Of a stretch of 64,000 bases of DNA, positions 43,455-50,407 are shown piece by piece; the stretch's first letter is position 1; each line of letters starts with the position of its first letter. The position numbers were made by a program, and so were the translations under genes. The notes beneath the pieces are model-generated. The model did no database searches and was not told the DNA's origin. It saw nothing but the letters and a program-made list of their open reading frames with translations. The stretch covers positions 4,340,001 through 4,404,000 of the forward strand of contig NC_134678.1 in the NCBI RefSeq assembly GCF_024713945.1. Direction: 5' to 3'. This stretch comes from Dermatophagoides farinae (taxonomy: Eukaryota; Arthropoda; Arachnida; Sarcoptiformes; Pyroglyphidae).

Positions 43455-44020
43455 TCACAAATTTATATCATTAATTTTACCGATGATTCGCTCATCGAAA
43501 TTTAAATCAGCCAATTTTGCACATTCAATGATTTCGGCTTTGATCTGATTGAATTCATTGATCAATTCATTACTCGGCTTAATGTTTTCCATCATCATTT
43601 CTTCGGATATTTCATACAATTTTCGCTCAACATTTGAATTCATCTGCTGTTCAAATTCTTGATCTAGTTGCATATACAATCTTGATATCCGAGATTTGAT
43701 TTGTTTCATACGATTAAGAACTTCATCCTGATGTCTCATTTTATAAATCAAAACATCATTGAATCCTTCTAGATGTCCTATCTTTTCGAAATATGGAAAA
43801 GCAATCGAATATCCATCATCGAAGGATTGCTGTGTCAATTTGTCTCGTGTTTCCTCAAAAGCGTCATGGAATGCTGACTAAAAAGAATTTAAAACAAAAC
43901 CCGATTTTTTTTCAATGGATAACTTACATTTTCAATACGATTCAAATCTCTTTCGAATTCTCTTGATGCCAAGGCTAATTCATCATCACCATCTGAATCA
44001 CCGAAAACATCATCGGCCAT
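43455..44020 (-). CDS. YAE1: YAE1-like protein (Fe-S adaptor for ABCE1)
   Basis: Two exons on the minus strand (43928-44020, 43455-43877) with a 50-bp intron, phase 0, give 171 residues. The N-terminus is acidic (MADDVFGDSDGDDELA). A Yae1-type segment follows, SFDDGYSIAFPYFEKIGHLEGF, in which Gly or small/aromatic residues recur every fourth position as in the deca-GX3 motif, though partly degenerate. The rest is helical with coiled-coil potential. Yae1 with Lto1 brings the cytosolic Fe-S assembly machinery to the ribosome-recycling ATPase ABCE1/Rli1. The assignment rests on the short motif, size and acidic start, so it is moderate; another small Yae1-domain protein is possible. Confidence 0.62.
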
Positions 44021-44253
44021 CGTTCGACATGTTCAGCGATATTTCATCATTATCATCACTTACTGCCATCTATTGGGCAGATCATATTGATTTTCAATCT
44101 TTGTTTTGTGGATATTTTATATCGTAAAATGAATAATAAAAAAAGTAAAAGGAATAAATTGAAAAAACGGAATTTTAATTATTACTTCGAAAAATTATTC
44201 AAAAACAATTTCTATACACGCACATAGCTTTGGCTTCCAAAAAACAATGATGA

Positions 44254-45481
44254 TTATTGTTTAAGAAGAAGGCATCGACGTTTAAGACATTTTTGTTTCT
44301 TGATATCATTGCCACCGAATTTTGGTTTATCCAAACAATATAAACATGTACCACAATCATCTTGTAAACATCCTTCACAAACACGGCAAGCCATTCGACG
44401 AAATTTAGAATTCATCCCAAGTGAATTGTCACCCTTTGAAGTAGTACTAGATTTTTTCTTTAATAGATCCTGTTTGGATTTGGATTTTTTAACTCCCAAA
44501 TTCATTGATCGATGTCCAGGTTGTTTGATTTCAGGATTGGGTTTTATAAACTTCTGAACAATACTCTCATTCAAAGATGAACCTGAGGCTATGGTTTCCT
44601 TTAAAAGTATTTGATCATCTGAGGTAATATGGTTATTATTGTTGATATCGTCTACCGTGAGAATATTCGATGTGGAAGCATTAAAATGTTTTTGGTATAT
44701 GTTGGCATGTTTCTTAGGATCTAATATATATTTCTTTAAACAAGCATTGAGTAGACAAGATTTACAACGTGCACCAGGCGAATCAATTTTCAATGAACAA
44801 TTTCCATCATACAAACATATGTATTGCACTGGTTTCTGAGTGTAACGATAGAAAAATTTGGCACAACTTTCACAGCTGAACACACCATAACGACGTGATA
44901 TATGAGAATAATATTTGGTTAGTCCACAAACTTCACATGTAACGGTTCCGCCTTTGGAATTTTGATTGGGCATCGATGAATGAGTTGGCGAAGATTTAGT
45001 CGATTGTGTTAAAGACGAAACAAAACCTATGATAAAAGGGAAAAATATTAATATATTAATACGTACTGTTTTCAATGATAAAAAATCACTTACTTTCATC
45101 AACATCGAGGTTCTCATGTAATTGCATGGACATAAGATGTGAATTATCTTCAAAATAATCTTCAACACTGTTAGAAACTTGGTCAACAATCGCATCATCA
45201 TCATCAAAGACCTTTTCAATAGGATCATCAAAATCATCTTGATCATAATCGATAATTGGTCTTTTTCTTTGTTTTTTCTGATGACCGATTTTTTTGAAAG
45301 ATATTTCCTCTTCATAATGTTCACAATGATAATGTAATTGTATTTGATCCATTGTGTCAAAAATTTTGGCGCAAAACATACAACGGTAAACTGTTTCGGC
45401 AATGATGATGCCGTTATTGTCACATATTATTGATCGAACATTTAATGCTGATCGAGATGGATCATTGACCAATTGCATCAT
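44254..45481 (-). CDS. Zinc-finger protein with C2H2, nuclear-receptor-like and CXXC fingers
   Basis: Two exons on the minus strand (45094-45481, 44254-45026) with a 67-bp intron, phase 1, give 386 residues. Finger 1 is C2H2-like (C34, C37, H50, H55), followed by a basic KKQRKR and a strongly acidic region. Finger pair 2 matches a nuclear-receptor DNA-binding domain: C160-x2-C163-x17-C181-x2-C184-x15-C200-x5-C206-x10-C217-x2-C220-x4-C225, with a P-box-like CESCAKFFYR after RYGVF. The first loop is four residues longer than usual. No ligand-binding domain follows. A Ser/Lys linker leads to a C-terminal CXXC finger (C343-C381) with CRVCEGC, DCGTC, KFGG and KQKC, the elements that contact unmethylated CpG in KDM2, CFP1 and MLL. 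The protein is probably a nuclear CpG-binding regulator. I do not recognise a named orthologue. A 5' UTR intron probably lies between about 45493 and 45570. Confidence 0.85.
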
Positions 45482-46656: not shown

Positions 46657-49600
46657 ATGCCAAAACATAATGCAAAAACAGAATGTTCAACATCAACAAT
46701 GTCTGATATTCGTAGCAATGAGAATTGCATTATCAATCATAATAATCGAATAAAAAATTCAAATAGCCTTAAACGAGACTATTCTGGTGACGGTACGATG
46801 ATCATCAATACGAATGGACGTAGTAAGATACCCATTTATAATGGTAATCATACAGATATGGCCACTAATGGTCGAAATTCTATGAATGTATTGGCCATAA
46901 ATAATCTAATCGGATGGAATATCGGTTACCATCATCATCAGCAACAACCACAGCAGATGATTACTAATTTAAATAATCTACGAATAATGGATTTACCCGA
47001 ACATGTACGAATCCATCAGAATATACATAATCGTCTTAATCATCCACAACGTCATCATTGTCAACAACAACAACAAGCACTACGATATTGTCAACATAAA
47101 CTCAGGTAAGATTCTCAGAAATGTGTTTGTTTCACTTGGAACAGAACAGAATAAATGAATGAATCGCGGCTAAACAGAAAAAAAATGAGTAGAAAGAGAA
47201 TCTAATAGGCTTGTTATGCATTGTCATAAGAGCAAATGAGTGTTGAGAGACACTCTCTCTGCTCAATTATTGTAATGTGGCTGGCTCATTCGTTGTAGAA
47301 TGTAACAACGTGTAGAGCTTATGTGGCTATTACATTGCTTACCATAGTGATGATAACATGAAAATTGATAATTTTTTATCATAATTTTACAGACCAAAAG
47401 AATTGAGTCGATCATTACCATCGACACCTGGATCATCTACACCGAAAGTAACACTTGAAGACGAAAGTTCTAACTCAATCATGTCATCATCAACCACGAC
47501 CGCCGCAACGACAGCTACCATGATGACAAATGCAACCAAAAATAGTTCCCGGTAATTAATTTAATTATTTTTTTTATATTAACGATAGAATAATTTTTTT
47601 ATCGAAAGAAAAAAACGTATGGCCAACTATGAGGAATATCTACCACTTTGTGAGATGCAAAAAGGTCTACAAAAAGGAGAAATCGTTGAGGTAAATTGAA
47701 TGAATTTATTCATTATTAATTAATATCTCAAATGTCTTCATACAGGGAATATTACGGATCAATCAACGAAATTATAACGATGCTTATATCAGTGCTCCGG
47801 TAATATCTGGTATTTTCATATTATCCAACTTTATCCAATAGTGTTTTTAATCTAAATCTTTATCTTATTGTATCGTGACATGGATTCGCTTATAGGACGG
47901 AGGCTTAGACATTTACATTAAAGGTTTGATTGACCGAAATAAAGCATTAAATGGTGATCTTGTTGCTGTGAAATTTCTGGATGAAAAAGAATGGAAGGTA
48001 TGATCAAAATATCTAAAATTTTCTTCGACAGTTTGATCCCAGATCTTTTCTTGAATCATATAGATTTCCTACACGGCAATAAATGCGAATTGGGAAGAAT
48101 GGAAAGACGATTTCATGCGATTGATCATGGCAAATAATGAAGAAATAGATCTTTCAAAATTGAAACTCAATTCAAAAGATATGGGATTAATTAGTATGGG
48201 TTCAAAATCCACGTCATCACCAATGACAAACGAGACATCCAAACAGTTGTTACTGGATGAATTTGAAAATCTTCCATTGGAAATTTTCACCTTACAAAAT
48301 TCCATTGTAAAAGAAGAGATATCTTATTGGCCACGATTAATTCAACGTACAGGAAAAGTGGTTGGAATTTTGAAACAAAATCATCCCAGAATGTTTGCTG
48401 GAACATTGAAATTTGATGAAAATAACGATAACAATATGAATCAAAAGAAAAAGAAAATAGAAAATGACAACAAATACGTAAAATTCACATCATGTGATAT
48501 TAGAAATCCTCAATTAATCATACCAATACAAACATTACCCGAATTCTTACTAAAAGACCATATCAAATTTAAGAATCATTTATTCTTAGCTGAAATTACC
48601 GATTGGAAATCAGATAGTCTCTATCCATCTGGTAAAATAATCAAGAATTTTGGTAAAATGGGTGACATTGATGTTGAAACAGAAATTATGCTCATATCCT
48701 TTAGTATCAACAAAGACGATTTTCCAGACCAAGCATTAGCTGAATATCAGGAAATATTTCCGGATAAAGACTGGCATATTCCTGAAACAGAAATTGAACA
48801 ACGGAGAGATCTTCGTAAAGAATGCATATTTACTATTGATCCAGAGACGGCTCGCGATCTTGATGATGCTATTTCTTATCGACAATTATCCGATGATCGA
48901 TTTGAAATTGGCGTTCACATTGCCGATGTATCATATTTCATCAAAGAGAATACATTGTTAGATCTTATCGCCAGTGATCGTGCAACTTCTGTTTACCTGG
49001 TTTCCAAAGTGATCCCGATGTTGCCACACATATTCTGTCAAGATTTATGTTCACTAAATCCTGGCCAAGATAAGCTTACATTCTCGGCTATCATAACAGT
49101 GAATAACTATGGCCAGGTTCTGGATCGATGGTTTGGACGTACAGTTATAAATTCATGCTGTAAGCTTTCCTATGAATTGGCACAAAAACTTATTGAATCC
49201 GATGATGATAACAAATTGGACGAGTCTATCTTTCCTCAGCTTTATGGTCCATGGTCTTTATCCGAAATCGGTCAACGTGTTCGCCATTTACATATTATAG
49301 CCAAAACTCTGCGACGAAATCGACAAGAGTCTGGCTCCATTCGATTGGATAAAACTAAAGTTTCATTTATGCTAAATGAAGAAGGCATGCCATTGGCATT
49401 GTCCAAATATAAGCTCCGCGAATCGAATTGGCTCATCGAAGAATTTATGCTTATGGCAAACAAATGTGTCGCTGAATTTCTGTATGATAAATTTGCTCCC
49501 GAAGGAAGAGCTTTCTTGCGATGTCACCCATCATTGGATAAGTTTGTTCTACGTGAATTTCTAAAATCAATCAAAGATATTTGTCCCATTGAATTTAAAA

Positions 49601-50407
49601 GTGAATGTTCACGATCAATGGTCGAATCCTTAGAAAAGTTGGCCGATATCGATAGAAACTTTTGCCAAATGTCTACAATGTTTTTGATAAAAGCCATGAA
49701 ATTGGCTATGTATACCTGTGTAAGCGATCAGGATAATCCCCTGTCATATCATCATTTTGCGTTGAATTTTTCCACATACACTCATTTTACATCACCAATA
49801 CGCCGATACGCTGATATTATAGTTCATCGTTTACTTTCCGTTGCTCTTGGATACGAATCAAGTATATGTTCAAAAACGAATGAAGAATTGAAAAAGATAG
49901 CTGATCATTGTAATACGAAAAAATATAATGCGATGTTAGCTTCAGAGAAAAGTACGGAAATCTATCTTAAGGCATATATATCGAAAATTGGATCACTTAC
50001 ATCGAAAGCAATCGTATTTCAAGTATATGATCATTCATTTGATGTCCTGACGCTGACATTTGACACCATCAATCGTATTTATTTGGATCAACTATATATT
50101 GATGATTATCAATTTATTCGTGATAATAGTAAACGTGAATTGAAATTGAAATGGAAACCAATCGACAAACAATCGATGCCCGACACTTGTTCTGAAACCT
50201 TGTCAGATGACAACAAAATGAATTTAATTCAAACTATAAAAAGTTTTGCTATACTTGATATTGAAATGATTGTAACGGATAAATTTGAATTTAAGGTAAG
50301 ATGCTTTGTTATATTCTCTTGTAGATTTTCATTCTTTTTCATCTGTCCATTACATCCAGGTCATTACTGCTCATCCAAACGGAAAATTTATTTATAATTT
50401 GAAATGA
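46657..50407 (+). CDS. DIS3L2: DIS3-like exonuclease 2
   Basis: Seven exons (46657-47105, 47393-47551, 47609-47690, 47746-47799, 47896-47997, 48064-50295, 50360-50407) give 1041 residues. DIS3L2 is a cytoplasmic 3'-5' exoribonuclease that degrades oligo-uridylated RNA without the exosome; unlike DIS3 it has no PIN domain, and none is seen here. The N-terminus (about 1-200) is a Asn/His/Gln- and Ser/Thr-rich extension. The first cold-shock domain starts near [26 protein letters not shown]-type sequence spread over exons 3-5 and continues in exon 6. The RNB catalytic domain starts near residue 529; D541, D547, D549 and D550 in the [11 protein letters not shown] motif are the metal-binding aspartates. 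ADVSYF, RATSVYL and SPIRRYAD motifs follow, then an S1-type end. The large 2.2-kb exon carries the whole RNB domain. NAA20 follows after 259 bp on the same strand. Confidence 0.95.

Follow-up and report, generated by a model that had tools for sequence, protein, structure and literature searches.

A small C4-CXXC protein of the mite Dermatophagoides farinae and its paralogue, possible DNA-reading derivatives of Trithorax

The gene described here lies on the minus strand of a 64,000-nucleotide window of the Dermatophagoides farinae genome (NC_134678.1, positions 4,340,001 to 4,404,000) and, with two predicted exons, encodes a product of 386 aa. The combination of a nuclear-receptor-type C4 domain with a CXXC finger in this product is confirmed. 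A second gene of the same genome, on contig C3, has the same domain order, common C4 residues and identical CXXC spacing, and thus, judged from sequence, the two genes form a small family and not a chance frame. As for their origin, the reading to which we give about even credence is that both encode SET-less DNA readers derived from Trithorax. The features of the focal gene, in coordinates of the window, are as follows.

45094..45481, minus strand: coding part of exon 1, with start codon, C2H2 motif and acidic stretch (open frame and GT..AG site, joined in frame)
45027..45093, minus strand: predicted 67-bp intron GTAAGT...TTATCATAG, placed by consensus splice sites only
44254..45026, minus strand: coding part of exon 2, 773 bases, with the C4 and CXXC domains followed by the stop codon
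45317..45388, minus strand: C2H2 finger motif, aa 32-55 (YRCMFCAKIFDTMDQIQLHYHCEH), strict consensus, weak in Pfam
45095..45259, minus strand: acidic stretch, aa 75-130, with 20 D/E and 1 K/R among 56 residues
44734..44940, minus strand: nuclear-receptor-type C4 domain, aa 159-227 (Pfam zf-C4)
44272..44409, minus strand: CXXC finger, aa 336-381 (Pfam zf-CXXC), with CLDKPKFGG...KKQ, nearest to the KMT2A/B kind

According to the reading frames and the predicted splice, the coordinates, strand, two exons and 386-aa length given in the original prediction are correct. The splicing is predicted from consensus sites. Upstream of its acceptor the frame of exon 2 remains open, which would allow an unspliced product with a different start. 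C4 and CXXC both lie inside exon 2 in one uninterrupted frame, and their pairing is therefore independent of the splice; even exons belonging to different transcripts would leave it intact. About 230 bases downstream, the minus strand carries its next gene (43455..44022), which resembles a Yae1-type protein, with a Yae1_N match on the ORF 43455..43877 that stays under the Pfam cut-off (E 0.005). Elsewhere in the window, a long plus-strand frame (48064..50397) reads as resembling a DIS3-type RNB exonuclease.

Pfam reports zf-C4 in the focal protein with 35.4 bits (cut-off 21.1, E 1.4e-8) and zf-CXXC with 51.2 bits (cut-off 26.5, E 1.3e-13), and a genome scan with zf-C4 gives 39.9 bits at the same place in the gene. 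Profile scoring had been proposed as a check of the C4 assignment, and the region scores above the cut-off and not at background level. The C-terminal CXXC finger with KFGG and KQ is also borne out, having both motifs and eight zinc cysteines with spacing 2,2,4,2,2,15,4. As for the N-terminal C2H2 finger that had been claimed in addition, the motif itself stands, since the strict consensus, which lies at aa 32-55, arises once when the protein is shuffled 200,000 times (136 of 50,000 for the loose consensus), while the Pfam match is under the cut-off (E 0.26), and it is thus kept as a motif only. The acidic stretch at aa 75-130 may be an activation-type region, and a basic linker contains 13 K/R in aa 301-350. 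In agreement with the reported absence of a ligand-binding domain, Pfam reports no such match for the 386-aa product up to an E of 10, and SET, PHD and FYRN/FYRC likewise have no match at this threshold. Some true nuclear receptors also have no ligand-binding domain. AlphaFold2 runs on single sequences produce low-confidence models, with pLDDT of 42 for C4 and 57 for CXXC. The focal product is very likely a DNA-binding protein.

Across all 22 contigs of the genome (62.4 Mb), the zf-CXXC scan reports four places over the cut-off, namely the focal gene, the C3 gene, a KDM2-like gene on C7 and a second C7 locus. The C3 paralogue (matched pieces within C3:6894416-6895905) contains C4 and then CXXC, the same order as in the focal gene, and the protein is thus not the lone case it had been taken for. 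Its C4 is split by introns, whose placement was done by eye; the unspliced exon scores 19.8 bits, under the cut-off, and the spliced domain scores 29.8 bits and passes on the first finger only, the second finger containing a 29-residue loop. Its CXXC is over the Pfam cut-off (49.6 bits), with cysteine spacing identical to the focal one. The zinc-binding cysteines of the focal gene are all intact, and in both C4 and CXXC they recur in the C3 paralogue. Between the two C4 domains 34 of 70 aligned residues are identical, including TKYYSH and RRYG, and the first loop of 17 residues (x17) is common to both. In a midpoint-rooted C4 tree of eight rows, with the focal gene on a long branch, the two form a group of their own (100/97, starred), separate from the six receptor DBDs of the genome that were included. 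When the whole 386-aa sequence is used as the query of the genome, two ordinary receptor loci outscore the C4 exon of the C3 paralogue. A candidate third paralogue at C1:1856199 (46% identity over 35 aa) was rejected, as it reads as an ordinary receptor finger; around it (C1:1855200-1858200) a nuclear-receptor DBD appears split by introns, with CPSCRLQKC as its second-finger text. The C4-CXXC genes counted are therefore two, although a third one could have escaped the count if introns interrupt both its C4 and its CXXC. The 10 kb that follow the C3 paralogue downstream contain ORFs that, read by eye, show no PHD, FYR or SET pieces and resemble unrelated genes.

Regarding the affinity of the CXXC fingers, the focal one has its best PDB scores with KMT2B (46.6 bits) and KMT2A (43.8-44.9), followed by KDM2A (42.0) and MBD1 (41.1). 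For the C3 paralogue the values are 45.4 for KMT2B, 43.7-45.0 for KMT2A, 43.7 for CFP1 and 41.9 for MBD1, CFP1 thus being equal in score to one KMT2A chain. The CXXC tree separates the focal gene, the C3 paralogue, KMT2A and KMT2B from KDM2A, KDM2B, FBXL19, CFP1, DNMT1 and the genome's own KDM2-like row at 93/93, an unstarred value in a tree of 10 rows and 47 columns that has no starred branch, carries long-branch warnings (the focal gene included) and leaves out MBD1 and TET. The same division is seen in the residues, with CLDK-x-KFGG in 4/4 rows of the KMT2A/B group and C[RK]DM-x-KFGG in all 6 other rows. These comparisons point, weakly, to a focal CXXC of the KMT2A/B kind. As for the C7 genes, the KDM2-like CXXC has KDM2B as its best PDB match (104.8 bits, after joining two exons), and at C7:2819798 a CXXC in a long proline-rich frame reads as TET/CXXC4/5-like, with Tet_JBP having no match in the genome.

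In vertebrates, the orthologues of Drosophila Trithorax are KMT2A/B (PMC9813062). For the fly protein, a variant nuclear-receptor-type DBD is reported in the title of Stassen 1995, a paper cited by PMC6647185 and PMC6829142. Descent from Trithorax is proposed because both kinds of finger are recorded in this family in the cited sources, C4 in flies and CXXC in vertebrates. The original prediction stated that no known CXXC family has such a partner, and in doing so it missed Trithorax, for which the sources just named report a nuclear-receptor-type DBD and whose vertebrate orthologues KMT2A/B have the CXXC nearest to the focal one. The focal C4 is set beside that of Trithorax by domain kind only. 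According to PMC6647185, Drosophila trx has no CXXC; the presence of C4 and CXXC within one Trithorax is therefore assumed for an ancestor and not seen.

The remaining parts of a KMT2A/B gene were sought in the genome exon by exon with SET, ePHD and FYRN/FYRC probes. In the assembly, which may be incomplete, these searches detected no such domain of the KMT2A/B kind. With E limited to 0.01, a SET scan gives 33 matches, and the subset classed by reading includes Ash1, NSD, E(z), Set1, Pr-Set7, Trr and SETD2 kinds. With the Trr SET as query, the best matches after itself are NSD-like (61 bits), Set1-like (57) and Ash1-like (50), followed by weaker ones, vs 106-113 bits for human KMT2A/B chains. 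The human KMT2A SET (identical to 2w5y) finds Ash1-, Trr- and Set1-like sequences first, at 39%, 47% and 50-58% identity, respectively. A KMT2A ePHD query of provisional sequence has its only strong match in Trr (81.5 bits), the next ones scoring 27 bits and less. FYRN is found at one strong and three weak places and FYRC at one place; the strong FYRN and FYRC adjoin each other in the Trr-like gene on C8 and nowhere else. Two candidates for Trithorax were rejected: the best SET match, at C6:886172, reads as Ash1-like, and the C8 FYRN locus, with its adjacent FYRN and FYRC, as Trr-like. The KMT2/SET1 genes detected are thus Trr-like and Set1-like only (C8:1406918 and C7:1397775, respectively). 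Two Trx-group SET genes, these same kinds, are seen in D. farinae, and insect genera have from 1 to 9, most often 3, in Table 1 of PMC5459927, which as given holds no mites. None of the literature matches listed was recognised as dealing with a C4-CXXC protein or with a loss of Trithorax in mites.

The most likely origin of the pair is therefore Trithorax, given a C4 of the kind reported in the cited title for Drosophila Trithorax, a CXXC nearest to KMT2A/B, and no KMT2A/B SET, ePHD or FYRN/FYRC detected elsewhere in the assembly. Under this reading the proteins would come from the N-terminal, DNA-reading half of Trithorax/KMT2A-B, the targeting part having been kept and copied and the methyltransferase part lost, with H3K4 methylation left to Set1 and Trr. 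Unmethylated CpG is the established target of CXXC fingers that have KFGG and KQ. From its family and the kept KFGG and KQ, the focal CXXC would bind it too, and the variant nuclear-receptor-type C4 would add a second DNA contact. The acidic N-terminal stretch might recruit co-activators or chromatin enzymes, and a recruiter of other proteins fits the acidic stretch together with the basic linker. The focal protein, in which no enzyme domain is detected, would then act as a nuclear DNA-reading adaptor, whether in activation or in repression.

As for the methylation setting, DNA methylase is over the cut-off at two loci (four exon pieces). The gene at C2:6133700-6136700 combines BAH and methylase domains and is thus DNMT1-like; the genome-wide scan gives no zf-CXXC match at this locus, and the genome search gives none for Tet_JBP. 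The CpG observed/expected ratio equals 1.07 for the window, and six 10-kb pieces give 1.02, values that argue against strong germ-line CpG methylation and suggest that there is little of it.

Among the other explanations, a lineage-specific transcription factor, in which a nuclear-receptor DBD was fused to a CXXC with no relation to Trithorax and then duplicated once, is unlikely, although it keeps a real share of our belief. The focal C4 matches receptor DBDs with solved structures (4oln, E 2.4e-7; 1a6y, E 6.7e-7), and raw material for a fusion is at hand, since the genome scan reports 52 receptor-exon zf-C4 matches at E up to 1, of which 48 are over the cut-off. All eight zinc cysteines are found in order, with spacing C-x2-C-x17-C-x2-C-x15-C-x5-C-x10-C-x2-C. 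This spacing departs from the canonical receptor one at x17 and x10, as does the P-box, which is CESCAKFF in the focal gene and CEPCFKFF in the C3 paralogue, the usual receptor form being CEGCKGFF. The first-finger loop is x13 in 11/11 other fingers of the genome, and x17 belongs to the focal gene alone among the 12 distinct first fingers readable in one exon, taken from 30 zf-C4 loci and the C3 paralogue locus; the latter contributed no finger to this count, an intron splitting it. Identity to the six receptor DBDs of the genome is 34-42%. The recognition helix retains E and R of the receptor pattern, and the residues between them are altered. The original description of a match almost residue for residue thus overstates the likeness, given the x17 loop, the 34-42% identity and the variant P-box. 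On the sequence evidence, the focal C4 is a variant and not a near copy of a receptor DBD. Had the fusion been recent, the C4 would be expected to look like that of a particular receptor subfamily; instead, the C4 domains of the focal gene and the C3 paralogue stand apart from six receptor DBDs, have the x17 loop in common, and occur with a CXXC closest to the KMT2 kind.

An older and widely conserved invertebrate C4-CXXC family, undescribed and independent of Trithorax, is rather improbable. The paralogues are only about 50% identical in their domains, which suggests that the architecture is not brand new. However, no such family is seen among the literature matches listed, which is weak evidence against it. 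Identical residues of the focal gene and the C3 paralogue have the same codon in 43/57 cases, with about 34/58 expected from independent usage; given this excess, the duplication need not be very old. Relatives were also searched for in viral and prokaryote collections, where the C4 alignment found 90 and 20 pattern stretches and the KMT2-kind CXXC alignment found 115 and 78, respectively, none of them confirmed; these scans carry no information on conservation in animals. A pseudogene or gene-model artefact, in which the exons or domains do not belong to one protein, is highly improbable, for although the splice is predicted only and the open frame upstream of the acceptor allows another start, C4 and CXXC share one uninterrupted 773-base exon, the zinc-binding cysteines are intact, and the C3 paralogue keeps the same ones.

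The original reading thus survives as to a small C4-CXXC protein with no detected ligand-binding domain, and not as to a partnerless lone novelty, given Trithorax and the C3 paralogue. In animal development, Trithorax/MLL serves as a core memory regulator. Within the Trithorax reading, a fuller history can be put forward tentatively, one that we would sooner doubt than accept: the catalytic half of Trithorax may have been lost, the DNA-reading half being kept and duplicated as free small proteins that perform targeting with no methyltransferase of their own, and the pair may record an ancestral Trithorax with both the fly-type finger and the vertebrate-type CXXC. If true, this gene pair would link the two in one protein, and it would offer a natural test of Trithorax action apart from H3K4 methylation.

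In comparison with known systems, CFP1, KDM2A/B, FBXL19, DNMT1, MBD1 and TET belong with the focal protein to the CXXC family by sequence. Among these, however, CFP1, KDM2A, KDM2B, FBXL19 and DNMT1 group apart from the focal CXXC (unstarred tree), and the consulted portions of PMC3685328, PMC2993927 and PMC10538959 name no C4 partner for any of the CXXC proteins listed. Nuclear receptors have the same C4 double finger with eight zinc cysteines in order, and the focal protein differs from them in its first loop (x17, not x13), second-finger loop (x10), CESCAKFF, lack of a ligand-binding domain and lack of GM after the second finger. It resembles Trithorax/KMT2A-B in its CXXC, which comes closest to the KMT2A/B kind, and its C4 is of the domain kind that the title cited above reports for Drosophila Trithorax; in contrast to them, it has 386 aa only and no PHD cluster, FYRN/FYRC or SET. 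Finally, Drosophila Lpt/Cmi and Trr, as described in PMC9813062, are halves of KMT2C/D that both survive as separate proteins, whereas here the catalytic half of KMT2A/B was not detected; they nevertheless offer an earlier example of a KMT2 protein divided into reader and catalytic parts.
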